From Streptomyces sp. 846.5 (GTDB lineage Bacteria > Actinomycetota > Actinomycetes > Streptomycetales > Streptomycetaceae): a stretch of 64,000 nucleotides of DNA. The stretch spans positions 4,698,001-4,762,000 of the forward strand of contig NZ_SOBN01000001.1 in NCBI RefSeq assembly GCF_004365705.1. Reading direction: 5' to 3'. Both the position numbers and the translations under genes were made by a program. The notes beneath the pieces were generated by a model. It was not told where the DNA came from, did not search any database, and saw only the letters and a list, made by a program, of their open reading frames with translations. Shown piece by piece: positions 9,035-58,876 of this stretch (the first letter of the stretch is position 1; each line of letters starts with the position of its first letter).

Positions 9035-9670
9035 TCAGGGCCACATCAGACAGTAGAGCTGGTGCCCGGCGTCGTGGAGGCGCTCGGCGAACTCGTGCCA
9101 CTCGTGGAGCATCTGGTAGATCACGAAGGCGTCGCGGGGGCCGCGGCGGTCGGGGACGGTGGACCAGATGAAGGCGGCGGTGCCGAGTTCGGCCTCGTCG
9201 GCCTTGCGGAGGGGTTCGACGACGGTGTGGGGGAGCTGGAAGACGGCGTAGTCGGGGTGGAGCACGACCAGTTCCAGCGGCGGGACGTTGGCCAGCGGGA
9301 TGCCCTTGATGCCGGTGAGGACCATGGCGCTCATGGTCTCCGGCTTGATCTTGGTGGAGAGGCCGCCGCTGAAGGTCTCGTCGCCGTCGCGGCCCTCCGC
9401 GCCGAAGAGCTCGCCGAGGCGGCCCAAGGTGCCGAGCTCGCCGGCGTCCAGGCCGAGGCCGTCCCGGCCCAGGGCGGTCGGGACCCGTGCGGCGGTGGCA
9501 CGGTCGGGTGCGCCGAAGTACTTGTAGGTCACCCCCACACCGCCACCGCCTCTGTTGCTGCCACCGCTGTTACCGCTACCACTGCCCCCGCGACGCCTGC
9601 GCGAAGCCCTCGCCGGACCCTCGGACCCCTCGCGCGCCTCCGACACGGCACCATCCTTACTGGCAGTCAT
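9035..9670 (-). CDS. Conserved hypothetical protein upstream of hemL
   Basis: A 211-residue protein from ATG 9670. The first 45 residues are disordered and rich in Arg/Gly/Ser. A folded part of about 160 residues follows ([58 protein letters not shown]). Proteins of this layout are commonly found next to hemL in streptomycetes as uncharacterised genes, from memory. No catalytic motif is clear. It is divergent from hemL with about 175 bp between the starts. Confidence 0.65.
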
Positions 9671-9844
9671 CGTTTTGCCAACAGGCAACGGGCGTGTGAC
9701 AGTCCGCCCTCCCCGAAAGTGGCACCGTCCGCCGAGTTCTGTCGGCAGGTGGGTGTGCACTGCGGCACGATCATCGTCCCAGATGATCGGCCGGGACATG
9801 CCGAAGGACAGGCTGCGGTTTGGAGAAGATGGGGATTTGAGACC

Positions 9845-11188
<1,344 letters not shown>

Positions 11189-28150: not shown

Positions 28151-29623
28151 ATGGACGAGACAGGAGCACTTCGGCATGGCCAGTACCACCACCCCCGCGT
28201 CCGGCTCCGGGCAGGACCCGGCGCCCGGCCCGAAGCGGCGCACGTTCACGGCGCAGTACAAGCTGCGGATCGTCGCTGAGTACGACGCGGCCCCGAACGG
28301 CGAGAAGGGCGCGATCCTGCGCCGCGAGCGGCTCTACCACTCGCACATCATCGAGTGGCGGGCCGCGCGCGACGCCGCTGCGGCGGCCACCCTGGTCGAC
28401 CAGCGCACCTCCGCGGCCCGGCCGAAGAAGGCCGCCGAACAGGCGGAACTTGAGCGGCTGCGCAAGAAGGTCGCCCGCCTCGAGAAGGACGTGGCGCATC
28501 GCGACGCCGCTTTGGAGCTGCTGGGAAAAACACACGCGCTCTTGGAGAGGCTCTCCGAGAGCGCGGGCTGAAGCACGCCGCCGAGCCCCTGCTCGACGAG
28601 GCGTTCACCGGCCTGGAACGGGAGTTGAACACCACGGCGGCCTGCCGGCTGACCGGACGCTCGCGAGCCACGCACTACCGGCGCCTGCACCCGCCGACGC
28701 CGCGCGAGCGCGCACCGCGCCCCTCGCCGGCTTCCGCGCTTTCCACGACCGAGCGGCAGGCCGTGCTGGACCTGCTCAACCGCCCGCAGTACGCCGACCT
28801 CGCCCCGGCCCAGGTCTGGGCCCGGGAACTGGACGAGGGCCGATACCACTGCTCGGAACGCACCATGTATCGGATCCTGGAGGCCGCCGGGCAGAGCGGG
28901 GAACGCCGCAGGCTGGCCTCCCATCCGGCCAAGACCGTCCCCCAGTTGCGGGCCACAGCCCCGTGCCAGGTACTGACCTGGGACATCACCAAGGTTCAGG
29001 GGCCGAACAAGGGCGAGTGGTACCACGCCTACGTCATCATCGACATCTACAGCCGCTACATCTGCGGCTGGACCGTGGAACGCGCCGAATCCGCCGACCG
29101 CGCCGAGGAGTTGATCCGCGAGACCATCGAGCGCAACGGCATCGTGCCCGAAACCGTCCACGCGGACCGGGGCACCGCGATGACCTCCAAGAAGGTCTCC
29201 CAACTGCTGATCGACCTCGGCGTCACCAGAAGCCACTCCCGACCCAAGGTCAGCAACGACAACCCCTTCAGCGAGTCGAACTTCAAGACCATGAAGTACA
29301 TGAGCGACTTCCCAAAATCATTCAACTCACTTGAAGAAGCCCGTAGTTGGTTCGACGGGTTCATCTCGTACTACAACCACGAGCACCGCCACTCGGGCAT
29401 CGGCCTGCACACCCCGGCGTCAGTCCACTTCGGCACCGCCGAACTGGTCCGCGAACAGCGGGCCACCACCCTTGCCGAAGCTTACGCCCGCCACCCCGAA
29501 CGCTTCGCCCGTCGACCCCAGCCACCCAAACTCCCGGAACAGGTCTGGATCAACGAACCCCAACCAGAGACAGAACCGGCACAACAGTCTTCATAGCATC
29601 AAATCGTCTCATTTGACTTGACA
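28108..29623 (+). mobile_element. IS3-family insertion sequence
   Basis: About 1.5 kb around an orfA/orfB transposase. The proposed ends are TGACAGTCTCGACAGAGACG on the left and, read inward on the opposite strand, TGTCAAGTCAAATGAGACG on the right. They align with a few mismatches and share GAGACG. I see no clear 3-bp target duplication, so ends may be off by a few bases or the copy may be rearranged. Confidence 0.7.
28176..29596 (+). CDS. IS3-family transposase OrfAB made by -1 frameshifting
   Basis: OrfA runs 28176-28571 (131 codons). It has an HTH (FTAQYKLRIVAEYDAAPNGE) and a leucine-zipper-like tail (ELERLRKKVARLEKDVAHRD). OrfB is in the -1 frame and ends at 29596. It carries the DDE integrase core: VLTWDITKVQG (first D), VHADRGTAMTSKKV (second D) and the final E in NDNPFSESNFKTMKY. 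The heptamer GGGAAAA at 28523-28529 is in the correct phase (G GGA AAA) for a -1 slip from OrfA into OrfB. The resulting fusion is the usual active IS3 transposase. Both halves look intact. Confidence 0.88.
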
Positions 29624-32024: not shown

Positions 32025-33269
32025 GTGCCGCGTGGAGTAGTCATGCCGGGGGTTGATGTCCTACCGGAGGGGCCTCGCCGTGAGCTGGTGATCGCTCTTC
32101 ACGAGCTCTATCGCGCGGCAGGTAAGCCGCCGTTCCGTAAAGTCGCAGAGACGATCAAGAACAATGACAGCCTTTCAGGGACCTTCAGCCCCGACACGGT
32201 TGGCAAGGTGTTGAACGGCAGCGTAGTGCCCAGTTGGGCACGCCTTCAGGCACTTATCACTTACTTCCACGAGCATGCCGTCGGGAGTAGGGAAGATAGT
32301 CTCGATAAGTGCCTAGGTCGCTGCCACAGGATTTGGCTCACGGCTTCTGATGAGCCAAATAAATCGGCTAGCTTTTCGACCCAGGCAAGTGCGGAATCGA
32401 TACACTATGCGCCCCGCTCTGTCGTCGATACGGAATCGGTTTTGCGAGACCTTGAGTCAGATAATGCCGGGCGCCAGTTGCGCGCTCTCTACGACATAGA
32501 AACCATAATATGGCGCTCTGATTATGGGCAGAGTGGACCTTTGACTCCTCAGCTAGTAGCCGATTTCCTGCTGCGCCACTCTTTGCCATTGGAGCGGCTT
32601 GACCAAATGAAGAATTTGACACCCTTGGATCAATTGAACATGGCCGCCCGCATTCTCAGAAGGCTCCCCGACACCGTCCGCCCAGGGATATCTTTGGACG
32701 GGCTTCGCATGCCGAATTTACAGTTGTCAGGCGCTGTCCTCCGCAATGTGCGGCTGCGCAATGCTCATCTTTACGCCAGTTCCCTGAATCGTGCCGATTT
32801 GACGTTATCCCTTATGAGTGGATCCGATTTGACTTGTGTAGGCATGGTTCAGTCGCTGCTTGGTGGAGCGGATCTCAGTCGCTCCTGCCTTAATGACACC
32901 ACCCTAACAAGAGCTCACCTTTTCCATGCAAAGCTGCAAGCAGCGGTGATCGATCGTGCGAAGTTCATGGGGGCAGAGATCGGTAGCTGTAGTTTTGATG
33001 GTTCTCGTGGAAGTCATACAGACTTCTCGGATGCGACAGCAACGCGTGCTTCATTTCGCAACGCTCGATTGGACTATGCGCGTTTCGGTGGAGCCACCTT
33101 GGATCATGCTGATTTCTCGAACGCGCATCTCAGGGGCGCAGTTTTCTTTGGTGCAAATCTAACCCATGCCCGCTTTGAAGGGGCAAAGCTGGACGGATGT
33201 AATTTTCGGTGGGCAATCCTGAATAATGTAGAATTCACCGACGAGCAGCGTCGTCAAATCTATAGTTAG
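32025..33269 (+). CDS. HTH-like N-terminus fused to pentapeptide repeats
   Basis: A 414-residue protein. GTG 32025 has GAGGGGG upstream; ATG 32043 is an alternative. The first about 85 residues resemble the HTH module of streptomycete regulators (RRELVIALHELYRAAGKPPF, then FSPDTVGKVLNGSVVPSWAR). The C-terminal half is a run of pentapeptide repeats A(D/N)Lxx, for example LRNVRLRNAHLYASSLNRAD and FSNAHLRGAVFFGANLTHAR, forming a right-handed beta-helix. Such helices can mimic DNA. The base composition is clearly AT-richer than the backbone, marking the start of the foreign cargo. A regulatory or defence-associated role is inference. Confidence 0.8.
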   Translation: MPRGVVMPGVDVLPEGPRRELVIALHELYRAAGKPPFRKVAETIKNNDSLSGTFSPDTVGKVLNGSVVPSWARLQALITYFHEHAVGSREDSLDKCLGRCHRIWLTASDEPNKSASFSTQASAESIHYAPRSVVDTESVLRDLESDNAGRQLRALYDIETIIWRSDYGQSGPLTPQLVADFLLRHSLPLERLDQMKNLTPLDQLNMAARILRRLPDTVRPGISLDGLRMPNLQLSGAVLRNVRLRNAHLYASSLNRADLTLSLMSGSDLTCVGMVQSLLGGADLSRSCLNDTTLTRAHLFHAKLQAAVIDRAKFMGAEIGSCSFDGSRGSHTDFSDATATRASFRNARLDYARFGGATLDHADFSNAHLRGAVFFGANLTHARFEGAKLDGCNFRWAILNNVEFTDEQRRQIYS

Positions 33270-33641: not shown

Positions 33642-34691
33642 ATGAGCACTGAACAAGATCGCGATCCGCGTAGGGTGTTTGTGGTACACGGGCGGGACAT
33701 GCGTACGCGGAACAGCATGTTTGAGCTACTCCGTACGTTCGACCTGCATCCACTTGAGTGGACTGAGGTAGTACGTGCCACCGGGAACACGATGCCGAGC
33801 ATTCTTGAGATTTTGACAGCCGGGTTTCAGATACCACAGGCCGTCATTGTGCTGCTCACACCAGATGACCTGGGGATCCTGCGGCGCCAGTATCAGGATC
33901 GATCGACAGACCCAGACTATGAAAGCAAGTTGGTGGGACAGGCTCGACTAAATGTAATCTTTGAAGCAGGGATTGCCTGTGCACTTTTCCCCAAGTCTAC
34001 GATCTTCGTGGAGCTGGGGCAAGTACGTCCGTTCACCGACATCGGCGGGATTAACACTGTTCGAATCTCGCAGGGTGGAAGCTGGAAAACCGAGCTCCGC
34101 CGGCGTCTGCATACATCAGGTTGCGCCGTATCAGACAATGACGCTTGGCAAAAAGTGCCCGGGTTTACTATCTCATTCGTGGATCGCTGGACGGAGTACG
34201 ACGAGAACGGCAGGAAACACGAGGACCTACTCGACAGAAGTGAGCTTGACGAGGCGAGACGCGGTGCCGAACAACTCGGAAGCCGTACGAGTGCCTATTG
34301 CTTGATCTCTAGCGTTCAGGAGGCATACGATATGGCCTATTGGGCTATGCGCTGTCGCGCCAATAGGAACGCCGCCTCTCTCTTGACTGAATTCCTCATT
34401 AACTCGCCCTTTGACCACGGGCGCCCACGCTTCCGCGCAGCCCGCGTGCTGGAGATGTTTGATGCCAATCTTCGTGAAGAGGCATTGAACGCGGCTCAGA
34501 GCGCCGGAGGTAGGGCAGCCTTGCCATTGAACGCAGACCTCCTCAAGGCCGCACGCTCACTGGGAGTGGAGGAATATTCTCGCTCGACGGAACTAATTAA
34601 GAGCGAGGACAGCCGCCAACAGCTGCTTATTGAGATCTCAACGCTCCCCAAAATGGATGAGGTGCGACTGCTCGATGCTGGAGAGGATTGA
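33642..34691 (+). CDS. CAP12-like TIR (predicted nucleotide-binding) protein
   Basis: A 349-residue protein from ATG 33642. Residues 10-150 are a TIR-like domain of the type found in CBASS Cap12 (PF10137 group): RVFVVHGRD, PLEWTEVV, SILEILTAGFQIPQAVIVLL, TPDDLG and ARLNVIFEAGIA, then VELGQVRPFTDIGG. The glutamate of NVIFEAG (Glu108) is at the position used for NAD+ cleavage in this family. The C-terminal about 190 residues are helical and unassigned (EAYDMAYWAMRCRANRNAAS); they probably sense or relay the trigger. It converges on the TIR-caspase-SLOG operon with an 11-bp gap. No cyclase is nearby, so it is not an ordinary CBASS effector. Confidence 0.82.
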   Translation: MSTEQDRDPRRVFVVHGRDMRTRNSMFELLRTFDLHPLEWTEVVRATGNTMPSILEILTAGFQIPQAVIVLLTPDDLGILRRQYQDRSTDPDYESKLVGQARLNVIFEAGIACALFPKSTIFVELGQVRPFTDIGGINTVRISQGGSWKTELRRRLHTSGCAVSDNDAWQKVPGFTISFVDRWTEYDENGRKHEDLLDRSELDEARRGAEQLGSRTSAYCLISSVQEAYDMAYWAMRCRANRNAASLLTEFLINSPFDHGRPRFRAARVLEMFDANLREEALNAAQSAGGRAALPLNADLLKAARSLGVEEYSRSTELIKSEDSRQQLLIEISTLPKMDEVRLLDAGED

Positions 34692-34702
34692 GTAGCGACT
34701 CG

Positions 34703-35170
34703 TCATCTCACAAGCCCCTCTGGCCAAATTACTCGAACAGGAACACCGAGTTCCTCAGCGTAACGAACTACGTCGGCTGTTCCGCCGAGTCCTTTCGCTG
34801 GCTTGCCATCCCATACGGCTATCATCTGGTCGCAGATTCCCACGATCTCTTTCCCGGCAGCGAAAAAGGCTTCCTCGCTGGGCTCAGAAAATGGAAGAAC
34901 TCTAACCCTTCCCGCTGTAGCGAGAAGTCGCCGATATTCATCGAGCGGCGATCCGGACATCGTAGATTCGTAGTGGTCCGACGGAACAATAACTTCCAGG
35001 CTCCCACCGAGCTCCAGAACAGTGGCGGCGCAGAGTTGATCGGCTCCGGCCGCCAAGCTGCTGACTCCCGTAACGTCTCCTAGTGATATTAGTTCGGCTC
35101 TCAGGGCAGACTCGATAGTCGAGACTGCCTGCACGGGAATATTCTGATGTCCAGTGAATCCAACCCTCAC
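34703..35170 (-). CDS. SLOG-fold nucleotide-binding protein, third gene of the TIR-caspase operon
   Basis: A 155-residue protein. GTG 35170 is preceded by AAGGAGG and overlaps the caspase stop (GTGA), which decides the start. It is a single Rossmann-like SLOG/DprA-like domain: MRVGFTGHQNIP (loop after strand 1), SLAAGADQLCAATVLELGG (the GAD-type glycine/acidic loop), LEVIVPSDHYE, IAVWDGKPAKGLGGTADVV and VPVRVIWPEG. SLOG domains bind nucleotide-derived ligands, and in type I Thoeris a SLOG domain of ThsA senses cyclic ADP-ribose isomers. Here the stand-alone domain could bind, sequester or remodel the TIR product. The coupling implies a stoichiometric role with the protease. Confidence 0.82.
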   Translation of the reverse strand: MRVGFTGHQNIPVQAVSTIESALRAELISLGDVTGVSSLAAGADQLCAATVLELGGSLEVIVPSDHYESTMSGSPLDEYRRLLATAGRVRVLPFSEPSEEAFFAAGKEIVGICDQMIAVWDGKPAKGLGGTADVVRYAEELGVPVRVIWPEGLVR

Positions 35171-36156
35171 AACTTCCCCTCCTTGGCGAGCTTCCAAAAG
35201 TATCGGCCTAGTGCCGTTAGATAGACGTCCTCAGAAGCAAGAGCCACAAAGTATAGGTCCTTTTCATTGTCAGTCGTCAATAGTCCGGCGTTCCGTAGCG
35301 CCTTGAAGTAGTCAAAAGCGTCTTGCTCGGATGTCGGACATTGGCCCGCTGGGATCGGCCTAACACCCTCGTGCTCTGGCGTCATTGTATAATGAGCAGC
35401 AGGTGCCGAGAAGAAGTCCGGGATCTTCCGCAGCAGTGCAGGATCAATTCCCGGCTTGCAGATCCGGAGTGGGGATGATTGTGTGATGTGGGACTTGAAA
35501 ACAGGGCGTTGCTCCCACGCGTCGAACGCCCTGGATACGAAGTCGTAGAGCGAAAGAACGGAGACGTTGCCAAGAGGATCGGCGGCCGCTCCCTCTAGCC
35601 CTTCGAGCAATAGCCGGGTATAGGCTCCATGGCCGCCGGACTCGGCAGAGGTTTCGGTGGCCTGAGATGCCGCAAGAAGAGTGACGCCTTCCTTCAATAC
35701 CGCTTTCCCGGCGCCGAAAGCTTCGGAGAGGCCCATCGGCTGGAGTCCTGGAATGTTCCCGAGATCGCCACTGAAGCAAGCATCTAGGATGATGACAACT
35801 TCCTGAGCGGGTGAGTCGTTTGCAAGGGTGAGGACATCGTTCATCGATACACCGAGCGCGTTCTCCGAGAAATCCTGCGTGACCAGCTCCGCACCCCACG
35901 GCGTTTGCACTCCGTGGCCAGCGAAATAGAACAAGATCTGATTGTTGCGTGAGCTAGCGAAGAGTTGGCGCAGTTCCGTCCGCAAGACCCCACGGTCTAC
36001 AGCCGCTGTGTCGCTCGTCATGCGGCGTACGGTGTAGTTGCGCGAGCCGTCATCGTTGCGTTCGAGCAAGCCTGCCATGCCCTGAGCATCGGCGACGCAG
36101 CCGTGCAGAGGGCTATTGGCGTAATGGTCGATGCCAACTACTAGAGCTTTCTTCAT
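35167..36156 (-). CDS. Caspase-like (peptidase C14) protease of a Thoeris-like system
   Basis: A 329-residue protein from ATG 36156, 7 bp after the TIR gene stop. The N-terminal about 215 residues are a caspase/metacaspase fold. The start is KKALVVGIDHYANSPLHGCV, then ILFYFAGHGVQTPWGAE with the catalytic His81, and EVVIILDACFSGDLGN with the nucleophile Cys127. TLLAASQATETSAESGGHGA follows as the usual substrate-pocket region. The C-terminal about 110 residues (FSAPAAHYTMTPEHEGVRPI, AFDYFKALRNAGLL) are unlike common caspases and are the likely signal-binding part. In TIR/caspase Thoeris the protease is switched on by a TIR-made cyclic ADP-ribose and kills the infected cell. Confidence 0.88.
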   Translation of the reverse strand: MKKALVVGIDHYANSPLHGCVADAQGMAGLLERNDDGSRNYTVRRMTSDTAAVDRGVLRTELRQLFASSRNNQILFYFAGHGVQTPWGAELVTQDFSENALGVSMNDVLTLANDSPAQEVVIILDACFSGDLGNIPGLQPMGLSEAFGAGKAVLKEGVTLLAASQATETSAESGGHGAYTRLLLEGLEGAAADPLGNVSVLSLYDFVSRAFDAWEQRPVFKSHITQSSPLRICKPGIDPALLRKIPDFFSAPAAHYTMTPEHEGVRPIPAGQCPTSEQDAFDYFKALRNAGLLTTDNEKDLYFVALASEDVYLTALGRYFWKLAKEGKL

Positions 36157-36163
36157 TCTCGCG

Positions 36164-36580
36164 TCACTTCTTATTCTTTCCTTCGCCCATCATCTGATCG
36201 ATGGCGGCTGCAATGCCCGACCAAGTCCATGCAATTACCCTATTTCGAGCGAGCCCCGTTGGCAGGTTCGAGGTCGTGTTGGCGCCATCAACGTAGACGC
36301 CGAACACTGGAACGTTGGCGTTCTTTGCGAACTGAATCTCCTTTGCGACGCCAGTTGCGCTTGCCATGTATCGCCCGACGAGCACGATAACCATGTTGCA
36401 GCGGCTTATCTTATCGGCAATAATTGCCTCCCATTGACTCTGGGGGAGCGAGGACTTAGACGACCAGTCCGCTACTACAAACGGTGTTGGCGAATCCTTC
36501 TTGCCCTGCCCAACAAAGAGCATTCGCGAGGTCTCGTCATGGTCGAAATCGAAACTAATAAATGCGCGCGGGTCGGCCAT
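36164..36580 (-). CDS. ThsB-like TIR-domain protein (DUF1863-type)
   Basis: A 138-residue protein from ATG 36580, with AAGGAG 7 bases upstream; a longer frame to 36622 lacks such a site. It is a single compact TIR domain of the ThsB/DUF1863 group: RAFISFDFDHDETSRMLFVG, PTPFVVADWSSKSSLPQSQW, NMVIVLVGRYMASATGVAKE and VPVFGVYVDG. The glutamate in GVAKEIQFA (Glu81) is at the expected NADase position. ThsB proteins sense infection and convert NAD+ to a cyclic signal. It is the first gene of the TIR-caspase-SLOG operon, so it probably makes the activator of the protease. Confidence 0.88.
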   Translation of the reverse strand: MADPRAFISFDFDHDETSRMLFVGQGKKDSPTPFVVADWSSKSSLPQSQWEAIIADKISRCNMVIVLVGRYMASATGVAKEIQFAKNANVPVFGVYVDGANTTSNLPTGLARNRVIAWTWSGIAAAIDQMMGEGKNKK

Positions 36581-36904: not shown

Positions 36905-37739
36905 ATGCGCAAGCGCAGCAAGACCGCACAGTTCTGCAGCCTGGACGGCCTCAACCTGGCGGGGACAGTAGAAGCTCCTGTGGACACCACGAGTGCCACG
37001 GCCGTACTCGTGCATGGCGGAGGGATCACCCGTGAAGAAGGCGGCTTCTTCACTCGGTTGGCGGACGGCCTAGCCGATGCGGGTGGTGCTTCTCTCCGCT
37101 TCGACCTGCGCGGCCATGGTGAGAGTGAAGGCCGCCAAGAGGACCTGACGCTGTCCGGCATCGCCAACGACATCCGGGCCGCGCTCGACCAGCCCGAGGC
37201 AAGCACGCTCGGTGTACCGCTCTTCCTTCTCGGGGCCAGCTTCAGCGGCGGCATCAGTGCGTACGTGGCTACTCAGGAGCCACCGCGGCTGCGGGGATTG
37301 GTGCTCATCAACCCGCTCCTCAACTACAAGAAGCGGTTCATCGACGAGAAGCCGTATTGGCATGACGACCACCTGGACGCAGCAGCCGGCGCGGAGCTGG
37401 CGGCACAGGGGTACCTGTCTCATTCCTCGACCTTCAAGCTCGGACGACCACTCCTCAAGAGGTCTTCCACTTTGACCGCACCGAGTCGTGCAACACCTCG
37501 CTATACCCACCCTCATCGTCCACGGCACTCGCGACACCTTCATCCCGGTGGAGAGCTCACGCCAGTACGCCAAGGACATCCCGACCGACGTCGAGCTGCT
37601 TGAGGTCGAGGGGGCCCAACACGGCATCGCCGTTCACGGCGATCCGACGTATGCCGACCCCCAGACGCGAGAGTGGCAGCGCTCCGTCATCAGCTCAGTG
37701 TCGGGCTGGGTGGTGGGTCGATCGGCCGGGGCCGGTTAG
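36905..37739 (+). pseudogene. Alpha/beta hydrolase gene with two single-base frameshifts
   Basis: The hydrolase starts at ATG 36905 (or GTG 36896) and shows AVLVHGGGITREEGGFFTRL, LRFDLRGHGESEG and the nucleophile elbow FLLGASFSGGISA. After LGRPLLK (about 37464) the homologous frame moves to EVFHFDRTES, and near 37490 it moves again to LQHLAIPTLIVHGTRDTFIP, with the catalytic His in VEGAQHGIAVHG, ending at 37739. Each shift equals one missing base (a G, then a C) within about 30 bp. Product length would be about 278 residues. Decay is likely, though base-calling errors cannot be excluded. Confidence 0.75.
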
Positions 37740-38590
37740 AAAGCGTTGAGGCTCTGGGTTTCGATGTACTCTTCCCCGTTCTCCCGCCAGCTGTAGCTGA
37801 CCTTCCATTGCACCGATGTTCCCAACGTCAGGATGAGAGGGAAACGCATGGCTGTGTTTGGGAGGAGGCGCTCCACCTCCAGAGGGATGAGAATCTGAGG
37901 GTCTCTTCCCTCGCCAGTAGATTCGATCTTAGCTTTCACATCTTCTGCGGCTGCATCGCCGATGTTTTCCAAGACTAGACGGTGGCTCGGAGAACGAGAG
38001 ACTCCCGCGAAGGCCTCCTCATGGCGAACCCTGACTACGGCTCGGCCCTGTTCGCTGACGCCGGAGTCCTCGTCATTCGGCGGAGCAAGTGCGGCAGTAT
38101 CCCGATCCAGATCGGCACGCACCTTGGCGGCCAGATCATCGGGCGAGACGTACCGCCCCAAGAGACCTTGGCTGTTGAGCGAGTTTTTGAAATCTCGAAG
38201 TGCCGTGAGCTGCTCAATGTCGAGATCGCTGGGGTGAGGCATGTCCGCAAAGTAGACGTGAGTTGGAACCCCTCGCTCAACGCCCTGCAAGATCTCTTCA
38301 GCTGTCCCCGATGCGCCCCGGGAGGTCGACTGTCCAAGCCGGCTATGGAACATGCCAACGATGATGTCGGCCTGTTCGACCAACTGCCGATTGACTACGG
38401 CTTGAGCATCGCCGCCTCCGAGTTCGGTTCTGCTGTCGAACTCCCAACGCAACGGCAGGAACACGACTTTGTCTCTTCTGGATCGGTCGCTGTTCCAGCT
38501 TCGGATGGCGGCCTCCACTGCATCCCGCTCTAGCACCGTGTCGCCAGGAGAGGCGATGAGAACGGACAGCACCCGTGCTTCGAATGGCAT
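37736..38590 (-). CDS. DUF4062-like protein with C-terminal beta-rich domain
   Basis: A 284-residue protein from ATG 38590, preceded by GGAG. Residues 1-165 fit the DUF4062 type: VLSVLIASPGDTVLERDAVE, VVFLPLRWEFDSRTELGGGD, QLVEQADIIVGMFHSRLG and SGTAEEILQGVERGVPTHVY. This is a Rossmann-like fold related to TIR/SLOG-type nucleotide-handling domains. The last about 90 residues (SHRLVLENIGDAAAEDVKAK, then FPLILTLGTSVQWKVSYSWR) predict an Ig-like beta sandwich that may sense or bind a surface. The gene is convergent with the hydrolase relic by 4 bp and is part of the AT-richer cargo. A role in defence is inferred from context. Confidence 0.7.
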   Translation of the reverse strand: MPFEARVLSVLIASPGDTVLERDAVEAAIRSWNSDRSRRDKVVFLPLRWEFDSRTELGGGDAQAVVNRQLVEQADIIVGMFHSRLGQSTSRGASGTAEEILQGVERGVPTHVYFADMPHPSDLDIEQLTALRDFKNSLNSQGLLGRYVSPDDLAAKVRADLDRDTAALAPPNDEDSGVSEQGRAVVRVRHEEAFAGVSRSPSHRLVLENIGDAAAEDVKAKIESTGEGRDPQILIPLEVERLLPNTAMRFPLILTLGTSVQWKVSYSWRENGEEYIETQSLNAF

Positions 38591-38647: not shown

Positions 38648-38995
38648 TTAGGCCAAGAGAGTACCGCGCAGCTCGCGAACCGCCGACTGACCAGCCCACG
38701 GCTCCAAACACTCGACCACACGCAGCAGTTCCTGCGTGGTGCGGGTTGAGTTGGTCGTCGTGGCGAGCGGTAGCGCCTGCATACTCACTCGGGCGGCTTC
38801 TTCGGCTTCGCCTGCTGCTGCCAGGGCTCCGGCCCGGAGGGAGAGAAAGTAGCCGAAATCCCGCCGGGAGAAGCCTCTCGCGGACAGATGGGAGTCGTAC
38901 AGCTTGGCCGCGCGAGTAGGTTGCCCGGCTTCTGAGTAGCAGATGGCTGTCTGCATCATCAGGAGCGTGGCGGAGTAGTGGCGCCCCAACTCGTC
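38648..38995 (-). pseudogene. C-terminal relic of an HTH-TPR regulator
   Basis: This frame reads LGRHYSATLLMMQTAICYSE, then AGQPTRAAKLYDSHLSARGF and AGEAEEAARVSMQALPLATT, which is the end of the TPR region of a streptomycete HTH-TPR regulator. The HTH and most repeats are missing. It is joined at about 38995 to the cut end of the ISAs1 transposase, so an IS insertion or recombination removed the 5' part. Confidence 0.75.
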
Positions 38996-39551
38996 ACTCG
39001 GACATCTTCGCGCCGACTTCGGCCTGGGCGAGGGTCACGACCGTGCCATGGGTGACCACGGAGAGCAGGTGCCGTCGCGGCGCTTCGAGACGGGAGGACC
39101 CCTTGAGTGCTTTGCCGTCGACGGCTATCACGGCTGCTCGCCCGGGGCTCGCGGCGCGGGTCCCGGTGGCGGTGCGGTGTCGGTCGGCCAGGTAGGCACC
39201 GACTGCCCGGTCCAGGGCGTCACCGTCAACAGCCCCCAGCACGCGCCCGATTGTGGCCGCCGACGGGGTACGCCGCCATCCCAGCAGACGACGGCGGATG
39301 CCGATGGTCTTCAGCAGCGTGTCTGCGGCACGCTGGCCCCACTCGGCGAGTTCGTCGATGCTCCGGGCTCCCGAGACCACCGCACAGGCACCCACCAGCA
39401 GGATCGCTGTCAGCGAATACCACCGGCCCCGCCGTGCACGGGGGTCGGGTACCGAGTCGAGGTATGGGCGGAGGTCCGCGACCCGGTCACTGTCCAGCGA
39501 CCCCAGTTTCAGCAGCGCGGCGGGGATGGGAGAGGATGCAGCAGCAGGCAC
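38994..39551 (-). pseudogene. 5' part of an ISAs1-family transposase
   Basis: The N-terminal 185 codons of an ISAs1-type transposase from about 39551. It includes LRPYLDSVPDPRARRGRWYS, LVGACAVVSGARSIDELAEW and the first catalytic aspartate segment VIAVDGKALKGSSR. It breaks off after LAQAEVGAK, where family members continue with the second aspartate region, and then stops at foreign codons (MSE). About half of the usual length (near 370) is lost, so it cannot be active. Confidence 0.82.
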
Positions 39552-39672: not shown

Positions 39673-40437
39673 TCACCTGCTCCGCCGTGTGGCCTCTGCC
39701 CTGATTGTGTACTTGGCTGCCGTGCTGTCGGCACTGGTGCGCAGTTCTTCGAGGATGAGCGGCTTTCCGGTGCTGGCGTCGTGGGTGACGCGGCGCAGTA
39801 GTAGGAGCGGGGCGGCGTCCGGGATGCGCAGGGCGCTGCGTTCGTCGGGTTGGGGCATGCGGGCGTGGACGGTTTCGGTCCAGGCAGGCTTGTGCCCGGC
39901 GGTGGCGAGTGCTGCGTACAGCTCGGCGACGGGGCGTGCGGGCTCGTCGGCCAGCGTGGTGCCGGCGGCGGTGGCCAGGGGGATGGTGACGCGTTGGAGG
40001 TAGCGGGTGCCGGTGGCGGGGTCTCTCAGGGTGCGGCCCACGGTGATCGTGGCCTCGTCCTCGTCCAGGCCGAGCAGGGGTGCAGTGGTGGCGTCGGTGG
40101 CGGCGCGATAGACGGTCGGGGGCTCCAGCTCGGTCCAGTCGTCGGCCGGGGTGGTGTAGCGGGCACCGGTTTTGGTCACGGTGCGTTCGACGGTGCTGGT
40201 GGCCCCGGTGGCGGTGGCGCGGACGAAGGAGCCTTTGCCCATGATCACGTCCACGAGGCCTTCGCTCCGCAGTGAGGCGATGGCCTGGCGGACGGTGGGG
40301 CGGGAGACCTTGTAGCGCTCGGCCAGGACGGCTTCCGAGGGCAGAGGGCCGCCGGGCTCGTATTCGCCGTCGGCGATGGCCTGGCGCAGGACGGTGGCGA
40401 CCTGCTTGTAGAGCGGTTCGTTCCTGATGATGTCCAC
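39673..40437 (-). CDS. GntR/HutC-type regulator of the transfer region (KorSA-like)
   Basis: A 254-residue regulator. GTG 40437 is chosen because the GntR domain starts at once: VDIIRNEPLYKQVATVLRQA, then PLPSEAVLAERYKVSRPTVR as the winged helix. The remaining part is a UTRA-type ligand domain (ATITVGRTLRDPATGTRYLQ, PLLLLRRVTHDASTGKPLIL). In AICEs such as pSAM2 a GntR protein (KorSA) represses the replication/transfer genes, and this gene is divergent from the transfer cluster. The 216-bp gap holds two inverted repeats with ACAGGT half-sites, its probable operators. Confidence 0.85.
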   Translation of the reverse strand: MDIIRNEPLYKQVATVLRQAIADGEYEPGGPLPSEAVLAERYKVSRPTVRQAIASLRSEGLVDVIMGKGSFVRATATGATSTVERTVTKTGARYTTPADDWTELEPPTVYRAATDATTAPLLGLDEDEATITVGRTLRDPATGTRYLQRVTIPLATAAGTTLADEPARPVAELYAALATAGHKPAWTETVHARMPQPDERSALRIPDAAPLLLLRRVTHDASTGKPLILEELRTSADSTAAKYTIRAEATRRSR

Positions 40438-40511
40438 GGTTGATGCCTCATCGGGTCGGCGGGGCTCCCTTGTCTGCTCGTCAGCTTGCTCGGTAGGACG
40501 CTGGACGTCAA

Positions 40512-40531
40512 GACAGGTTCGGTCACCTGTC
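40512..40531. promoter_or_regulatory. Operator-like inverted repeat 1 (ACAGGT half-sites)
   Basis: GACAGGT-tcggtc-ACCTGTC, perfect 7-bp arms, 75 bp upstream of the GntR start. It shares its half-site with the repeat at 40586-40603, fitting autoregulation by the GntR protein. Confidence 0.7.
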
Positions 40532-40585
40532 ATAACAACAGACCGAAAGACCCTTGCATATGCCGGATCGGCGGAGCAGACTCGA

Positions 40586-40603
40586 CACCTGTAAGGACAG
40601 GTG
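40586..40603. promoter_or_regulatory. Operator-like inverted repeat 2 (ACAGGT half-sites)
   Basis: CACCTGT-aagg-ACAGGTG, perfect 7-bp arms, about 50 bp upstream of the first transfer-cluster gene (40654), in the position where a repressor would block its promoter. Confidence 0.7.
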
Positions 40604-40653
40604 ACGGCCGACGGGTAGCGTCGGCGGCTTGAACGGACCAGGAGTCCACACAC

Positions 40654-41019
40654 ATGCAGCTCATCCCGATGGATGACAGCCGGATGGCACCGATGCTCTG
40701 CGTCGGCTCCCCGGCACCCAAGCTGGTCAGCAACGAGACAGGAGAGATCAAGCGCGACAAGGACGGCAACCCGGTGTTCAGCGTGCCGGTGGTCGTCAAG
40801 GACGGCTACCGCGTGTCCGTGATCGAAATCGCGGTACCCGGGGAACCTGCGGGCATCACCGAGGGCGTGCACGTCAAGGCTCTGGGCCTGGTCGCGCTGC
40901 CCTGGACCATGGGCGAGCGCACCGGCATCAGCTTCCGCGCCGACGCCCTCATCCCCGCACCCCCCACCCCACCCACCGGACCGCCGGCCGGGCCCGGCAA
41001 GGGCGGTGACGCCAAGTGA
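40654..41019 (+). CDS. AICE-conserved small protein heading the transfer cluster
   Basis: A 121-residue protein from ATG 40654. The core reads APMLCVGSPAPKLVSNETGE, then GNPVFSVPVVVKDGYRVSVI and LGLVALPWTMGERTGISFRA, predicting a small beta domain, with a proline-rich tail. Proteins of this look lie directly upstream of the FtsK-like tra gene in many streptomycete elements, and some related ones are described as activators of replication and excision (Pra). I cannot confirm that assignment. Its stop overlaps the next start (GTGA). Confidence 0.6.
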   Translation: MQLIPMDDSRMAPMLCVGSPAPKLVSNETGEIKRDKDGNPVFSVPVVVKDGYRVSVIEIAVPGEPAGITEGVHVKALGLVALPWTMGERTGISFRADALIPAPPTPPTGPPAGPGKGGDAK

Positions 41020-41249
41020 CACAAGACTGGAGGACCCTGCGCAGCCTGCTGCGCACCCTCGGCGACCTGGGCGAGGAACTGCACCCCGGCACCGACCCCG
41101 ACAGCGATGTGCTGGTGTTCCGGCAGGTCGAGACGGCGTCCCGCGACGCCGGACGCCTGGCCGGGGACCTGGCCACCGACCACGCCAACCTGGCCGCAGA
41201 GAACAACATCCCGCATCCCACCTCGGACGGGGGACGCCATGAACGGTAA
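41016..41249 (+). CDS. Small helical protein in the transfer operon
   Basis: A 77-residue protein from GTG 41016 overlapping the previous stop by 4 bp; its own 3' end overlaps the tra gene start by 11 bp. The sequence WRTLRSLLRTLGDLGEELHP and TASRDAGRLAGDLATDHANL suggests a helical hairpin. No family is recognised. The coupling indicates a role in element transfer or its control. Confidence 0.55.
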   Translation: MTQDWRTLRSLLRTLGDLGEELHPGTDPDSDVLVFRQVETASRDAGRLAGDLATDHANLAAENNIPHPTSDGGRHER

Positions 41250-42651
41250 CTGCGGTGGGCTGGTCGGGATGGCCTGCGCGATGCAGCAGCACCCCGCAAC
41301 GGCTCCGGCGGTGACGGTGGGTCGGCATGGCCCGTCGGCCGCGCTGGTCCTGCTGGCCGCGCTGGCGGGGGTGCTGTTGGTGCTGGCGGCGGTCGCCCCG
41401 GTGCTGCGGCGTCGGGCGCCGGTGGCCTGGTGGTACCTGGCCGGGTTCCCAGTCGCCTGCCTGCGGATGCGGGTCACCTGGCGCCGGCTGACGGTGCTCA
41501 CTGATCTGGCGGTGCCGCGCCGTCCGGGGCGGCTGCTGCTGGGCGGGATGATCGTCAAGGGCGATCCGCTCAAACCGATACCCCCACGCCTGGGCATGCC
41601 CCGGATCCGGCGCGGGGGCCTGGTGGTGCGGGTGCGCCTGCACCCCGGGCAGGTCCCGGAGATGTTCGCGGGCGCGGCGGAGGCGATGGTGCACGCCTGG
41701 CGGGTCCACGCCGTACGGGTGGCCTTCGACGCGCGCGGCTTCGTGACCCTGACCGCAACCGCCTGGGACCCCCTCACCAACCCCTCGATCCCACACCAAC
41801 TCGGAACCCGACTGCTGGCCGCATTGGTCGGCCAGCGGGAGGACGGCGTGCCGTGGGTGGTGGATCTGCGCAGGGTGCCGCACTGGCTGATCGTCGGAGC
41901 GACCCGGTCCGGCAAGTCCACGCTGCTGGCCTGCCTGGTGGCGCGCTGGGCCCCGCAACGCCTAGCCCTGGTCGGCATCGACCTCAAGGGCGGCATGGAA
42001 CTGTCCCTGTTCCACCCGCGCCTGTCCGCCCTAGCCACCAGCCGCACCGAAGCTGCTGACCTGCTTAAACACCTGGTGCAGCTGACAGGTGAGCGCATGG
42101 CGCTGTGCCGCTCGGTGGGGGCCCGCTCCATCTGGGACCTGCCCGACCGGCAACGTCCCATCCCGATCATCGTGCTCGTCGACGAGGTGGCTGAACTGTT
42201 CCTGATGGCCACCCGCGCGGACAAGAACGAGGTGGGCGAGGTCTCCACCGCGCTGCTGCGCCTCGCCCAGCTCGGGGCCGCGCTCGGGGTGCACCTGGTC
42301 GTCGCCGGTCAACGCGTCGGCTCCGACCTGGGCCCCGGCGTCACCGCGCTGCGCGCACAACTCGCCGGACGCGTCTGCCATCGCGTCAACGACCCCGGGA
42401 CCGCCGAAATGGCCCTGGGCGACCTGAACCGCGACGCCTTGGCAGCAGCCCAGGAGATCACGTTCGAGGAAGCCGGGGTGGCGATCACCTTCGGCGACGA
42501 CGGCCACTGGACCCGCGCCCGCTCCACCCTGACCACCCCCGACGAAGCACAGCGCATCGCCGAGAAGTACGCCCACCTGACCCCGCCCATGGCAGCCCTG
42601 GGCGCACACGCCCCCGGGGACTTCGAGGAGCTTGGAGTGTACGAGCCGTGA
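41239..42651 (+). CDS. FtsK/SpoIIIE-type conjugative DNA translocase (TraSA/TraB-like)
   Basis: A 470-residue ATPase from ATG 41239. One hydrophobic helix lies near the N-terminus (SAALVLLAALAGVLLVLAAV), then the motor: Walker A LIVGATRSGKSTLLACLV (about residue 220), Walker B IPIIVLVDEVAEL, and HLVVAGQRVGSDLG as the sensor region. AICEs transfer double-stranded DNA with a single such hexameric motor that recognises short repeats (clt) on the element. The size and layout match TraSA. It is followed by a coupled Spd-like gene. Confidence 0.92.
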   Translation: MNGNCGGLVGMACAMQQHPATAPAVTVGRHGPSAALVLLAALAGVLLVLAAVAPVLRRRAPVAWWYLAGFPVACLRMRVTWRRLTVLTDLAVPRRPGRLLLGGMIVKGDPLKPIPPRLGMPRIRRGGLVVRVRLHPGQVPEMFAGAAEAMVHAWRVHAVRVAFDARGFVTLTATAWDPLTNPSIPHQLGTRLLAALVGQREDGVPWVVDLRRVPHWLIVGATRSGKSTLLACLVARWAPQRLALVGIDLKGGMELSLFHPRLSALATSRTEAADLLKHLVQLTGERMALCRSVGARSIWDLPDRQRPIPIIVLVDEVAELFLMATRADKNEVGEVSTALLRLAQLGAALGVHLVVAGQRVGSDLGPGVTALRAQLAGRVCHRVNDPGTAEMALGDLNRDALAAAQEITFEEAGVAITFGDDGHWTRARSTLTTPDEAQRIAEKYAHLTPPMAALGAHAPGDFEELGVYEP

Positions 42652-42836
42652 CCGTGGCCCTGCCGCTGGTGGCGTTCCTGGCCATCGTCGTGTTCCTGCT
42701 GGTCCGCTCCGGTGACCTGCCCATCTGGCAAGTGATCCTCGTCGGGCTGCTGGGCTTCTACCTGGCCCGCACCCACCTCGCCGACCCCATCGCCGCAGCC
42801 GTCACCTGGATCGTGCGCGGCCTCACCCACACCTGA
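42648..42836 (+). CDS. Spd-like small membrane protein
   Basis: A 62-residue protein from GTG 42648, overlapping the tra stop (GTGA). It has two hydrophobic helices (LPLVAFLAIVVFLLV and IWQVILVGLLGFYLA). Small membrane proteins right after tra are known as spread (Spd) proteins in streptomycete plasmids and help intramycelial spreading of the DNA. The call rests on position and topology, not on a motif. Confidence 0.65.
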   Translation: MTVALPLVAFLAIVVFLLVRSGDLPIWQVILVGLLGFYLARTHLADPIAAAVTWIVRGLTHT

Positions 42837-42854
42837 CCCGAGGAGAGCCATCTG

Positions 42855-42968
42855 ATGACCTTCCGCCGCGTGATCTGCCCCGACTGCCGGGGCTGGCGAC
42901 GCCGCTGGACCCCGACCGGAGGCGGACACCGCTGCCGCTGCTGCCGGGGCAAAGGCACCATCCGCTAG
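42855..42968 (+). CDS. 37-residue zinc-ribbon-like peptide
   Basis: ATG 42855 to TAG 42968, with AGGAGAG upstream. The peptide shows CPDCRGW and, after a Gly-rich turn, HRCRCCRGKGTIR: two CxxC-type knuckles that can hold one zinc ion, with many arginines for nucleic-acid binding. It lies between the Spd-like gene and the replication gene. Very small zinc peptides like this are common in streptomycete elements. Confidence 0.65.
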   Translation: MTFRRVICPDCRGWRRRWTPTGGGHRCRCCRGKGTIR

Positions 42969-43112
42969 ACCCCAACCATCCGATCCACCCACGCGAACAG
43001 GAGCAACCCATGCACCACCACCCGACCCGTGACCTGACCAACGCCGCGCCTGGCCCCGCCCCTCTCGGGGCCCGGTCGGGCGCGGTGCCCGCCCCCTGCC
43101 TTGGGAGATCGT

Positions 43113-44564
43113 TTGATAGCTGCACCCGGCCGGACCCCTGAACCCGGCAACCCCTTCGAAGACCCCGCCGCACGCCGCGCCTACCTCGACCGAGACACCC
43201 GCCTGAAAGCCCTGGCCAGCACCGACCGGGAACTGATCGACCTGGTCAACATGCCCGGCTTCAAGCGCTGGACCGAGCAGATCCGCGCCACCGGCGGCTG
43301 CGCCCACCCGATCTACCTCGCCGGACACACCACCACCGTCGACACCGCCACCGGGCACGTACTGCACCACTACAGCACCGCCGATGAGCCGCGCGGACGC
43401 CTGACGGTCCGCTGCCGCAACCGCCGCGCCTCCCGCTGCGCCCCCTGCTCCCGCGAACACCAGGGCGACACCTTCCACCTGATCCGCGCAGGCCTGATCG
43501 GGGGCAAAGGCGTCCCGCCGTCGGTGGCCACCCACCCCCGGCTGTTCGTCACCCTGACCGCCCCCTCCTTCGGCGCCGTCCACCGCACCGGAGAGACCTG
43601 CACCACCGCGCGACGCGGGATCTGCCTGCACGGACGCCCCCGCGCCTGCCACCAGGTCCACACCGACGACGACTCCGTCAACGGGCAACCACTGTGCGGC
43701 AGTTGTTACGACTACGCCGGACATGTGCTGTGGAACGCGCACGCCCCCGCGCTGTGGAAGGCCTTCGGCGACAACCTGTACCACCACCTCGCCAAAGCCG
43801 CCGGCATCGGGCGCACGGCGGTGCGCTCGCTGGTACGGGTCTCGGCGGCCAAGGTGGCGGAGTACCAGCGACGTGGCGCGATCCACTTCCACGCCGTCCT
43901 CCGCCTGGACGGCCCCGCCGGTCCCACCACCGCGCCCCCGACCTGGGCAACCGCTGAACTGCTCCTGGACGCGGTGCGCACTGCGGCGGCGGCCGTGGCA
44001 CTACGACTGCCCCACTCGGCTGCCCTCGGGGAACGGGTGCTGCGGTTCGGCGCCCAGCTCGACGCCCACCCGCTCACCGCCGACGGCGGCGACCGGATCA
44101 CCGACGACCAGGTTGCCGCCTACGTCGCCAAGTACACCACCAAGAGCGTGGAGACAGCCGGGGCCCTGGACCGCCGCGTCACCTCCGCCGCCGACATCCG
44201 GGCCCTGATCGTCAACGACCACGTACGGGCCCTGATCGGCACCGCCTGGCGCCTCGGCGGCCTGCCCGAAATGGAACACCTTCGGCTGCGGACCTGGTCG
44301 CACATGCTCGGGTACCGGGGTCACTGCCTCACCAAGACCCGCGCCTACTCCACCACGTACGGGCAGCTCCGCAGCGTCCGGGCTGCGCATGCCCGCATCG
44401 CCTCCGGCCGGACGCTGTACGCCGACTGGGACGACGACACCGCCACCGAATCCGCCTGGCGCTACGTCACCTCCGGCCACACCTTCGCCGAAGCCCTCAT
44501 CGCCGCCGGCATCGCCGAAGACCTCGCACTGAACCGCGAAGCAGCGCGAGAGGACAGCCGGTGA
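43113..44564 (+). CDS. RepSA-like rolling-circle replication initiator
   Basis: A protein of about 483 residues. TTG 43113 is chosen for its GGGAG site; TTG 43101 is in frame but poorly placed. The N-terminal part has a Cys cluster (RCRNRRASRCAPCSREHQGD), a second CxxC (PLCGSCYDYAGH), then the HUH-like motif RRGAIHFHAVLRLDG and the likely tyrosine region DDQVAAYVAKYTTKSVE. These are features of the RepSA family (pSAM2), which starts rolling-circle replication of the excised circle. The 3' end overlaps the next small gene by 4 bp. Confidence 0.88.
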   Translation: MIAAPGRTPEPGNPFEDPAARRAYLDRDTRLKALASTDRELIDLVNMPGFKRWTEQIRATGGCAHPIYLAGHTTTVDTATGHVLHHYSTADEPRGRLTVRCRNRRASRCAPCSREHQGDTFHLIRAGLIGGKGVPPSVATHPRLFVTLTAPSFGAVHRTGETCTTARRGICLHGRPRACHQVHTDDDSVNGQPLCGSCYDYAGHVLWNAHAPALWKAFGDNLYHHLAKAAGIGRTAVRSLVRVSAAKVAEYQRRGAIHFHAVLRLDGPAGPTTAPPTWATAELLLDAVRTAAAAVALRLPHSAALGERVLRFGAQLDAHPLTADGGDRITDDQVAAYVAKYTTKSVETAGALDRRVTSAADIRALIVNDHVRALIGTAWRLGGLPEMEHLRLRTWSHMLGYRGHCLTKTRAYSTTYGQLRSVRAAHARIASGRTLYADWDDDTATESAWRYVTSGHTFAEALIAAGIAEDLALNREAAREDSR

Positions 44565-44719
44565 CTCATGCTTCCAATCGCCGGAGCGAGCAGAAGCCCA
44601 GGCCAAGGGTGCCGACTCCTGAGGAATGGGCGCGGGAGCACATGAGGGGCGCCCCCGCGCGATCCCGCGAGTGGATGAAGCGCATTGCTCAGATCTACGG
44701 CTTGGAGATTGGTCCTTGA
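44561..44719 (+). CDS. Small basic element protein overlapping the integrase 3' end
   Basis: A 52-residue peptide from GTG 44561 (overlap GTGA with the rep gene). It is basic and helical (RSEQKPRPRVPTPEEWAREH, SREWMKRIAQIYGLEIG). It occupies the place where AICEs usually encode Xis, but no HTH is evident. If the serine integrase needs a recombination directionality factor, this is one candidate by position only. It converges with and overlaps the integrase gene by 25 bp. Confidence 0.55.
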   Translation: MTHASNRRSEQKPRPRVPTPEEWAREHMRGAPARSREWMKRIAQIYGLEIGP

Positions 44720-46260
44720 TCGTCGTTGGACTCCGCGTCGTGATCGCGCCAGATCGGAGTGATCTTGCTCGGGTCGAAGATCTTGCTGCCTGCTCCGGCG
44801 GGATGGATCTCGACCGCAATCAGGCTCTCGGCGACAGCGCCCTGACGTTGTTCAAGCAAGAATTTCTCGTCAGCCCATCGCTCCCGAAGATCTGTCACAG
44901 CTGACATTCGACTCTCGCGGGCACTGTCGTACTTACGACGCTCAGCCAAGAGCGCTCGCTCGTCGGACTCCAGCTCCTCAAGCAGGGGGAAGTATCGGCC
45001 ACCCGTGATCCGGTCGGCTCGATACTGCTGCGTCAGTTCGTTGATCTTTGTCCTGACGGAGCGAAGTGCCTCTTCCTTGCCCCATGGTGGAAGCTCCTCG
45101 ATCGACTTCAAGGAGGCTCGCTCATGGTCCTGGATGACCAGTTCAGTGATGTACTCGTCCACGCTGCTGCCCAGGCGTGAGCACCCCCCGCACCCTCCCT
45201 CTTCCTTGCTGCGACACCAATAGACGTGGACCTTGACGCCTCCGGGGCCGGGCCGCGTTCCTCCGCGCATACGGGCTCCGCAGGCCCCGCAACGAACGAA
45301 CGGCGACAGCAAGTACTTGGAGACGTGCCCCCGGCCGTCGCGGGGGTTCACGCGTGGGCCGTAGCTCGTCACGCGGGAGTCAACGGCGCTGAACTGATCC
45401 TCGGTGAGGATCGCCTCCCAAGCGCCTCGCACTGGCAGGCCGTCAGAGTTGAGCAGGATCTCACCCTTGTAGGTGCGCACGCCGTAGAGCCTTGGGTTGG
45501 TGAGGATCTGGGACAGCGTCTGAGTGGTCCACTGCTTTCCGGTGACTGACAGGATCCCGGCCGCGTTCCAGGCCTTGACGATGCTCGCTACTCGCACGCC
45601 GCTGACAACTTGATCAGCTGCCTTGCGGAGCAGGTCGGCCTCGACCTCGTTGAGCGTCGTCTTGTCCTCGTTCCAGCCGAACGGGCGATAGGCGCCACCG
45701 CTGTTCCGCCCCTTGAGGGCTGCTTTGCGTTTGCCGTTCATCATCCGCCGTGAGGTGTTGCGCGACTCAAGGTTGCGCTGGTTGATCTCGTTCCGCGCCA
45801 TGGCTATGCCGGAATCGGTAGTGAGATCGAGGAAGCCTGTGATCGCCGCTACGAAGACTCCGTACCGCTCGACAAGGTCAATGAGGTCTTCGAGGTCGCG
45901 AGGGTCACGCATCCCTCGGTCGATGTTGACCAGTGCAAGCGCGTTGTGGGTTCCTCGCCGCAGGTCGGTCATCACGGCATCCCACACGGGGCGAACCACG
46001 CGGTAGGCGTGTGTGCCGTCGGGAAGCCGTACGCGCTTCTTCTTGAACGCGGAGGTGTCGTTCTCCACTGCCTCGCGGCCGACGCGGCCACCGAACTCCG
46101 TGGCGTATTCGCGGAGGTCGTCCATCTGGTTGGTGACCTGCTCGCCCGCGCCTTCGGCGTCCTCGGACTCTCGGGCGTAGAGGACCCAGGACAGTTGTTC
46201 GGGGTCGATGTTCAGCTCAGTGCGTCCGCCGGCGCGGCGCGGTGTCTCCCGTAATCCCAT
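44695..46260 (-). CDS. int: Large serine recombinase (element integrase)
   Basis: A 521-residue serine integrase. The resolvase-type catalytic domain has the nucleophile in WVLYARESEDAEG (Ser32), with the arginine-bearing LVNIDRGMRDPRDLEDLIDL and DSGIAMARNEINQRN. The recombinase domain follows (GGAYRPFGWNEDKTTLNEVE), then the zinc ribbon (VRCGACGARMRGG ... YWCRSKEEGGCGGCSR) and a coiled coil (LRSVRTKINELTQQYRAD). Its start is about 35 bp inside the right junction, the usual place next to attP. It inserts the element into the NCS2 permease gene. Confidence 0.93.
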   Translation of the reverse strand: MGLRETPRRAGGRTELNIDPEQLSWVLYARESEDAEGAGEQVTNQMDDLREYATEFGGRVGREAVENDTSAFKKKRVRLPDGTHAYRVVRPVWDAVMTDLRRGTHNALALVNIDRGMRDPRDLEDLIDLVERYGVFVAAITGFLDLTTDSGIAMARNEINQRNLESRNTSRRMMNGKRKAALKGRNSGGAYRPFGWNEDKTTLNEVEADLLRKAADQVVSGVRVASIVKAWNAAGILSVTGKQWTTQTLSQILTNPRLYGVRTYKGEILLNSDGLPVRGAWEAILTEDQFSAVDSRVTSYGPRVNPRDGRGHVSKYLLSPFVRCGACGARMRGGTRPGPGGVKVHVYWCRSKEEGGCGGCSRLGSSVDEYITELVIQDHERASLKSIEELPPWGKEEALRSVRTKINELTQQYRADRITGGRYFPLLEELESDERALLAERRKYDSARESRMSAVTDLRERWADEKFLLEQRQGAVAESLIAVEIHPAGAGSKIFDPSKITPIWRDHDAESNDDQGPISKP

Positions 46261-58465: not shown

Positions 58466-58876
58466 TCAGCCGTTGTGCGCCGAGCCCTCCGGCCAGACGC
58501 GGTGGACGTAGGTGCCCTGCGCCTCGGCGCGGGCGACCGCCTCGGAGATCCAGCCGTCCTGGCCGCCGTCCCAGACCACGACGATTTCCTCGACCAGGCC
58601 GAGCAGGGCGTCGATCGGATCGACCCCCGGGGCCAGCCGGTGCACGGCGCGGGCCTGGCGCAGCAGGGGTGAGGGAGCCGGGGTGCCGAGCACCTCCAGG
58701 GTGCCGCCGTGCTCCAGGACGGCGGCGGCGAACCAGCTCTCCGGTCCCGGGCCCAACGGGCTGACGCCGACCAGGCCGTAGGTCTGGTACCCGGTCACCA
58801 GCTTCCACAGCTCGCCGCGGACCAGCATCTCGGTGATCTCCGAGAGGTCCGTGTGCCCGATGACGCCGATGTTCAT
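58466..58876 (-). CDS. Small SLOG-like Rossmann protein
   Basis: A 136-residue protein from ATG 58876. It shows the same single-domain layout as the third gene of the defence operon: MNIGVIGHTDL after strand 1, LGPGPESWFAAAVLEHGG as the glycine/acidic segment, LEVLGTP, VVVWDGGQDGWISEAVARA and TYVHRVWPEG. Sequence identity to the element gene is low but the motif order is the same. It is a host core gene next to menG; function unknown, nucleotide-derivative binding likely. Confidence 0.6.
   Translation of the reverse strand: MNIGVIGHTDLSEITEMLVRGELWKLVTGYQTYGLVGVSPLGPGPESWFAAAVLEHGGTLEVLGTPAPSPLLRQARAVHRLAPGVDPIDALLGLVEEIVVVWDGGQDGWISEAVARAEAQGTYVHRVWPEGSAHNG

Follow-up and report, generated by a model that had tools for sequence, protein, structure and literature searches.

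Type IV Thoeris reportedly pairs a TIR protein with a caspase-like protease, and is said to have been described by Rousset et al. in 2025 (Science 387:510). The TIR protein makes N7-cADPR, which activates the protease (PMC12847820). The effector of type I Thoeris, ThsA, is a SIR2-SLOG protein, and SLOG proteins are also known from SLOG-SLATT systems (Burroughs et al. 2015, as cited in PMC9503650). The window studied here, a 64,000-nucleotide stretch of the Streptomyces sp. 846.5 genome, carries a three-gene operon on the minus strand (36580-34703) whose reading frames encode a TIR protein, a caspase-like protease, and a stand-alone SLOG protein. Like type IV Thoeris, the operon has a TIR protein with a catalytic Glu beside a caspase-like protease with intact His and Cys, and lies in mobile DNA with other defence genes; unlike type IV Thoeris as described, it adds an apparently translationally coupled SLOG protein. 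The first-pass annotation placed this third gene outside the published description, and none of the accounts searched joins SLOG to type IV Thoeris. The founding paper lay outside that search, so a prior mention is possible, and the source papers for CATRA and SLOG/SLATT likewise lay outside the literature comparison, which leaves the priority of the SLOG-type IV link uncertain.

The operon and its TIR-caspase pair

The three genes had been proposed to be tightly coupled, and their coordinates agree. The TIR gene (36164..36580, minus strand) runs from an ATG at 36580, with the ribosome-binding-like stretch aaaaaaggagaatacc upstream, to a stop at 36164. After a 7-bp gap, the caspase gene (35167..36156, minus strand) begins with an ATG at 36156 and stops at 35167, and the SLOG gene (34703..35170, minus strand) begins with a GTG at 35170, within the protease stop (gTGA, 35167..35170), and ends at 34703. 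This 4-nt overlap is kept in 17 of the 19 loci compared, and protease and SLOG are likely to be translationally coupled through it. Because relatives of the three genes occur in the same order and with the same overlap in many unrelated genomes, the operon is more than a chance arrangement.

The host genome is actinobacterial and 9.0 Mb in size. The operon has a G+C content of 54-57%, compared with 69% for the window; a gene caller based on codon usage missed the entire low-GC operon and is not the basis for its gene calls. Genes of a pSAM2-like integrative conjugative element flank the operon on one side (39673-46260; GntR regulator, FtsK/TraSA-type, RepSA, and serine recombinase), and insertion-sequence genes lie at 28176-29596 and 38994-39551. 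Together with the low G+C, these indicate that the operon is within horizontally acquired DNA. Also in the neighbourhood are a CAP12/PCTIR-type TIR protein (33642-34691, plus strand), convergent with the SLOG gene and with 11 bp between the stops, and a pentapeptide-repeat protein (32025-33269, plus strand) within the same low-GC stretch as the operon. A DUF4062-like protein (37736-38590, minus strand) has a weak Pfam match and matches PADLOC PDC-S60 at 1e-22; a 2026 preprint (PMC13174449) describes DUF4062 proteins as the TIR-like NADases of Swarozyc, a defence system. A second, shorter SLOG-like protein of 136 aa (58466-58876, minus strand; E 2e-13 to the SLOG profile) is encoded in high-GC DNA outside the low-GC stretch.

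The TIR protein (138 aa), a predicted NAD+-using signal synthase, is of ThsB type, matching Pfam ThsB_TIR (4.1e-8) and PADLOC ThsB (1.6e-10), and its catalytic Glu81 is present without exception in the 94 sequences that cover this column of the alignment. The protease (329 aa) matches Peptidase_C14 in Pfam (1.3e-18), and its His81/Cys127 dyad is invariant in 74 of 74 relatives; the catalytic residues of both proteins are where the first-pass annotation put them. The structural model of the protease (pLDDT 93.5) matches MALT1 paracaspase, caspases, and metacaspases, and a sequence search of solved structures also gave metacaspases; the protein has a conserved extra C-terminal domain at approximately residues 230-329. 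When five full-length proteases were scanned against one genome per species, the best 80 loci came from many phyla, and where the protease was full-length a TIR gene nearly always adjoined it; over all bacteria, 69 of the loci examined have a TIR gene next to a member of this caspase family. In gene content and neighbourhood, the window pair fits a type IV Thoeris-like system, as first suggested. Against the profile of the EACC1-caspase system (NCBIfam caspase_w_EACC1) the protease scores 82 bits, below the cut-off of 140, and searches of the neighbour proteins scanned around the operon with Pfam, PADLOC, and NCBIfam found no EACC1. The same three collections gave no SIR2 match in the six proteins scanned for type I Thoeris. 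Several Pseudomonadota and Bdellovibrionota loci have a further TIR-like gene immediately downstream of the protease or SLOG gene (L193 4442-4948, L197 4398-4874, L063 6947-7525, L067 6971-7516, and L072 6969-7448), and genes for DUF6338 proteins are found near TIR-caspase pairs on two unrelated plasmids (L194 1728-2312 and L202 3028-3756).

The SLOG protein: recurrence, fold, and putative site

The SLOG gene is a recurrent third gene, with approximately 29 independent loci by gene neighbourhood, several of them on plasmids. It directly follows the caspase gene in 19 loci of the first set, window included, and in five further independent actinobacterial loci. Among the best 80 loci across bacteria, 11 have it downstream of the protease, one of them in Planctomycetota, and another, in a rhizobial genome, has a frameshifted SLOG remnant. 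Sampling by rank gave SLOG beside all five full-length proteases in the order (295 genomes), beside 8 of 11 intact full-length proteases in the class, with one more cut by a contig end, and beside four of seven in the phylum. The check proposed by the first-pass annotation, whether SLOG recurs at TIR-caspase loci, was therefore answered in its favour. Caspase-associated SLOG genes are found in Actinomycetota, Planctomycetota, Pseudomonadota, and Bacillota, and follow the protease on Bacillus subtilis pBS72, two Rhizobium plasmids, and an Agrobacterium Ti plasmid; in Methylorubrum the gene order is SLOG-TIR-caspase. On the protease tree the SLOG label changes four times, compared with 16.5 times in shuffles, and the tree has a SLOG-less clade of 51 rows. 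Recurrence and the SLOG-less clade together indicate that SLOG is a real, old, and lineage-restricted component rather than a universal one, and since most type IV-like pairs are without it, SLOG is not needed for the basic pathway. Natural caspase-SLOG fusions were sought among the loci and none were seen. An IMG/VR contig (L153) has a TIR-caspase pair with a separate SLOG gene approximately 4 kb away on the opposite strand (9583-10083, minus strand).

The window SLOG protein (155 aa, with a GHQ signature) has no match in Pfam, PADLOC, or NCBIfam, so its name needed the support of a predicted structure. The AlphaFold2 model (pLDDT 95.5) has YpsA (2nx2) as its top Foldseek match (E 3e-10, TM 0.81), followed by DprA, LOG, and the 3'cADPR-bound SLOG of ThsA (7uxs, E 1.7e-4), while a sequence search of solved structures returned only DprA (E 0.33). 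The third protein is, on this model, a SLOG fold closest to YpsA. Its identity as SLOG is thereby upheld, while the likeness to ThsA survives in part: the match to 7uxs is significant, but weaker than that to YpsA. As in type I Thoeris, the window SLOG fold has a TIR partner; unlike in ThsA, it is a separate protein, and a protease takes the place of the SIR2 NADase as effector.

The GxD/E motif is the signature of a predicted ligand site in the YpsA-like SLOG clade (PMC6459960). The window protein has G42-A43-D44, with G42 and D44 invariant in 40 relatives, and agrees with the ligand-binding YpsA clade in both predicted fold and this motif (PMC6459960, PMC9503650). In the alignment and model, conserved residues follow the strand ends, where Rossmann-type ligand sites lie, and no part of the protein is more conserved than this putative nucleotide site. 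Unlike the YpsA/DUF1273 clade, which it resembles in fold and motif, the SLOG family falls under the Pfam cut-off or is unmatched and is operonic with defence effectors: the window protein has no match to PF06908 (YpsA), and plasmid relatives score 15.7-18.4 bits against a cut-off of 27.7, with one plasmid copy named DUF1273 in RefSeq. Residue 9, which lies in the predicted site's first loop, is Gln in 24 of 24 caspase-linked SLOGs and Arg in 21 of 23 stand-alone SLOGs, and the two groups separate on the SLOG tree (two changes, compared with 13 in shuffles).

The conservation of this site bears on two possible roles for SLOG. An immunity-like inhibitor or chaperone, binding the protease regardless of ligand, would agree with translational coupling and co-inheritance with the protease, but a pure protein inhibitor would not need a nucleotide site, and members of this SLOG family also occur with unrelated membrane effectors; this role is unlikely. 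Even less probable is a role as another effector or as a protease-activated substrate, such as an enzyme that cleaves nucleotides. SLOG proteins of the LOG type are enzymes (PMC9503650), and protease-activated proenzymes are mentioned for other defence operons in PMC12799240, but the LOG catalytic motif GGxGTxxE is absent from the window protein, which reads GLGGTAD, and relatives of the same family occur with effectors that are not proteases.

Partners of the SLOG protein

Pairwise distances between caspases and SLOGs correlate (Mantel r 0.48, p 2e-4, n=18; r 0.51 in an extended set, n=23). In the 13 loci with all three genes the correlation is present for caspase and SLOG (r 0.34, p 0.014) and absent for caspase and TIR (r 0.00, p 0.42), and for SLOG and TIR r is 0.10; two TIR subfamilies accompany the SLOG-bearing proteases. 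The SLOG label was also tried as a test of partner, and changes four times on the TIR tree and four times on the caspase tree, singling out neither. Because of these equal counts the distance correlations are support, not proof, and the partner swaps are, judged from gene neighbourhoods, the stronger evidence on which partner SLOG follows.

Frankia-like genomes carry the caspase-SLOG pair next to a CATRA-N/C-EAD1 gene and with no TIR gene nearby; CATASP usually flanks the pair on the other side. There are six such CATRA-caspase loci (L095 and L181, which represent one locus, L183, L184, L185, L186, and L188); five of them include SLOG on the contig, and the sixth (L185) ends before it. These loci appear to link CATRA with type IV Thoeris proteases. 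The window operon shares the caspase family of the CATRA conflict system, but neither CATRA nor CATASP is present in the window, and profiles built from the Frankia-like loci match nothing in the window. On Novosphingobium plasmid p4 (L198 2002-3474) there is an apparent effector swap, with TIR, the octameric membrane protein 8xMP, and SLOG in this order but no caspase. On a Caballeronia plasmid (L199 2546-5511) SLOG is fused to a DUF4231/SLATT-type membrane region and is followed by a TIR gene. For stand-alone SLOGs in the window's order, 25 of 26 loci carry a SLATT gene convergent with SLOG. The same SLOG family is thus found beside or fused to SLATT-type 2TM effectors, as in SLOG-SLATT systems, whereas the effector in the window is a caspase-like protease.

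The main rival to a gating subunit is a signal buffer or destroyer, in which SLOG would bind or cleave the cyclic signal of the TIR protein so that leaky synthesis spares the protease. SLOG stays with TIR at the Novosphingobium locus while the effector changes, SLOG-less pairs are common, as would be expected of an accessory, and viral SLOGs of the YpsA clade have been proposed to degrade or bind ADPR-type signals (PMC9503650), with relatives of similar predicted fold carried by Streptomyces phages. However, SLOG is still beside the caspase in the CATRA loci without an adjacent TIR, a relative is fused to the membrane domain of an effector in Caballeronia, SLOG distances track the protease and not TIR, and the LOG catalytic motif is missing. 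A buffer is rather doubtful. Of the roles guessed in the first-pass annotation, sensor or effector subunit is favoured over signal buffer, because SLOG stays with the caspase where CATRA stands in for TIR, and because a SLATT-type effector elsewhere carries a fused SLOG relative. The phage relatives (Francob gp74, Faust gp76, and Mildred21; L196 2501-2986, BFVD A0A222YVC8) are annotated as DprA-like, are approximately 31% identical or have a similar predicted fold (TM 0.84), and are candidate counter-defence proteins.

SLOG as a proposed regulatory subunit

The reading preferred here, with somewhat more confidence than doubt, is a SLOG-bearing type IV Thoeris whose SLOG protein serves as a regulatory subunit, binding a ligand and gating the effector. 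By analogy with type IV Thoeris, the TIR protein would sense phage and turn NAD+ into a cyclic ADP-ribose-type signal, and the caspase-like protease would act as effector, breaking down cell proteins and so aborting infection. Translational coupling would keep the synthesis of SLOG matched to that of the protease. Through its conserved YpsA-type site, SLOG would bind the signal of the TIR protein, or else a related nucleotide, and, presumably in physical contact, gate the protease as either activator or brake, in addition to whatever the C-terminal domain of the protease senses. The recurrence of SLOG beside the protease in at least four phyla makes it probable that a separate subunit senses for the protease or gates it. 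Neither the 8xMP nor the SLATT settings have a caspase C-terminal domain to receive a signal, and for a SLOG common to differing triggers and killing devices the simplest reading is nucleotide-signal binding and effector gating.

Several findings count against a gating subunit. Most type IV-like pairs do without SLOG, and the label counts on the trees do not point to the protease in particular. The C-terminal domain of the caspase is kept in lineages with and without SLOG, with residues F249, E263, L292, L313, and G317 conserved in both, and there are loci without TIR, namely L046, L047, L190, and the CATRA loci. At L045 (8888-9142) the TIR gene is cut to approximately 55 codons and has lost its Glu-bearing half, next to intact caspase and SLOG genes. 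Near L045-L047, a membrane protein that has a VLYLR motif is a candidate stand-in for TIR; it is seen in only four loci and has no informative family match. As the C-terminal domain is conserved in the lineage of the window, control of the protease may be double, by SLOG and by its own domain. A broader proposal, put forward tentatively and with less confidence than doubt, is that SLOG is an interchangeable signal-receptor subunit, which would couple TIR-made or CATRA-triggered signals to an adjacent caspase-like, 8xMP, or SLATT-type effector, and that type IV Thoeris here has three components with a doubly controlled protease.

In type IV Thoeris a caspase-like protease is linked to TIR signalling, a combination clearly echoed in eukaryotic immunity. 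If the subunit has a conserved ligand site as proposed, a separate receptor would gate the protease across a large lineage, and, given the swaps with CATRA, 8xMP, and SLATT-type partners, SLOG would be a general link from nucleotide signals to killing devices. This also suggests what the SLOG relatives of Streptomyces phages might imitate or block.
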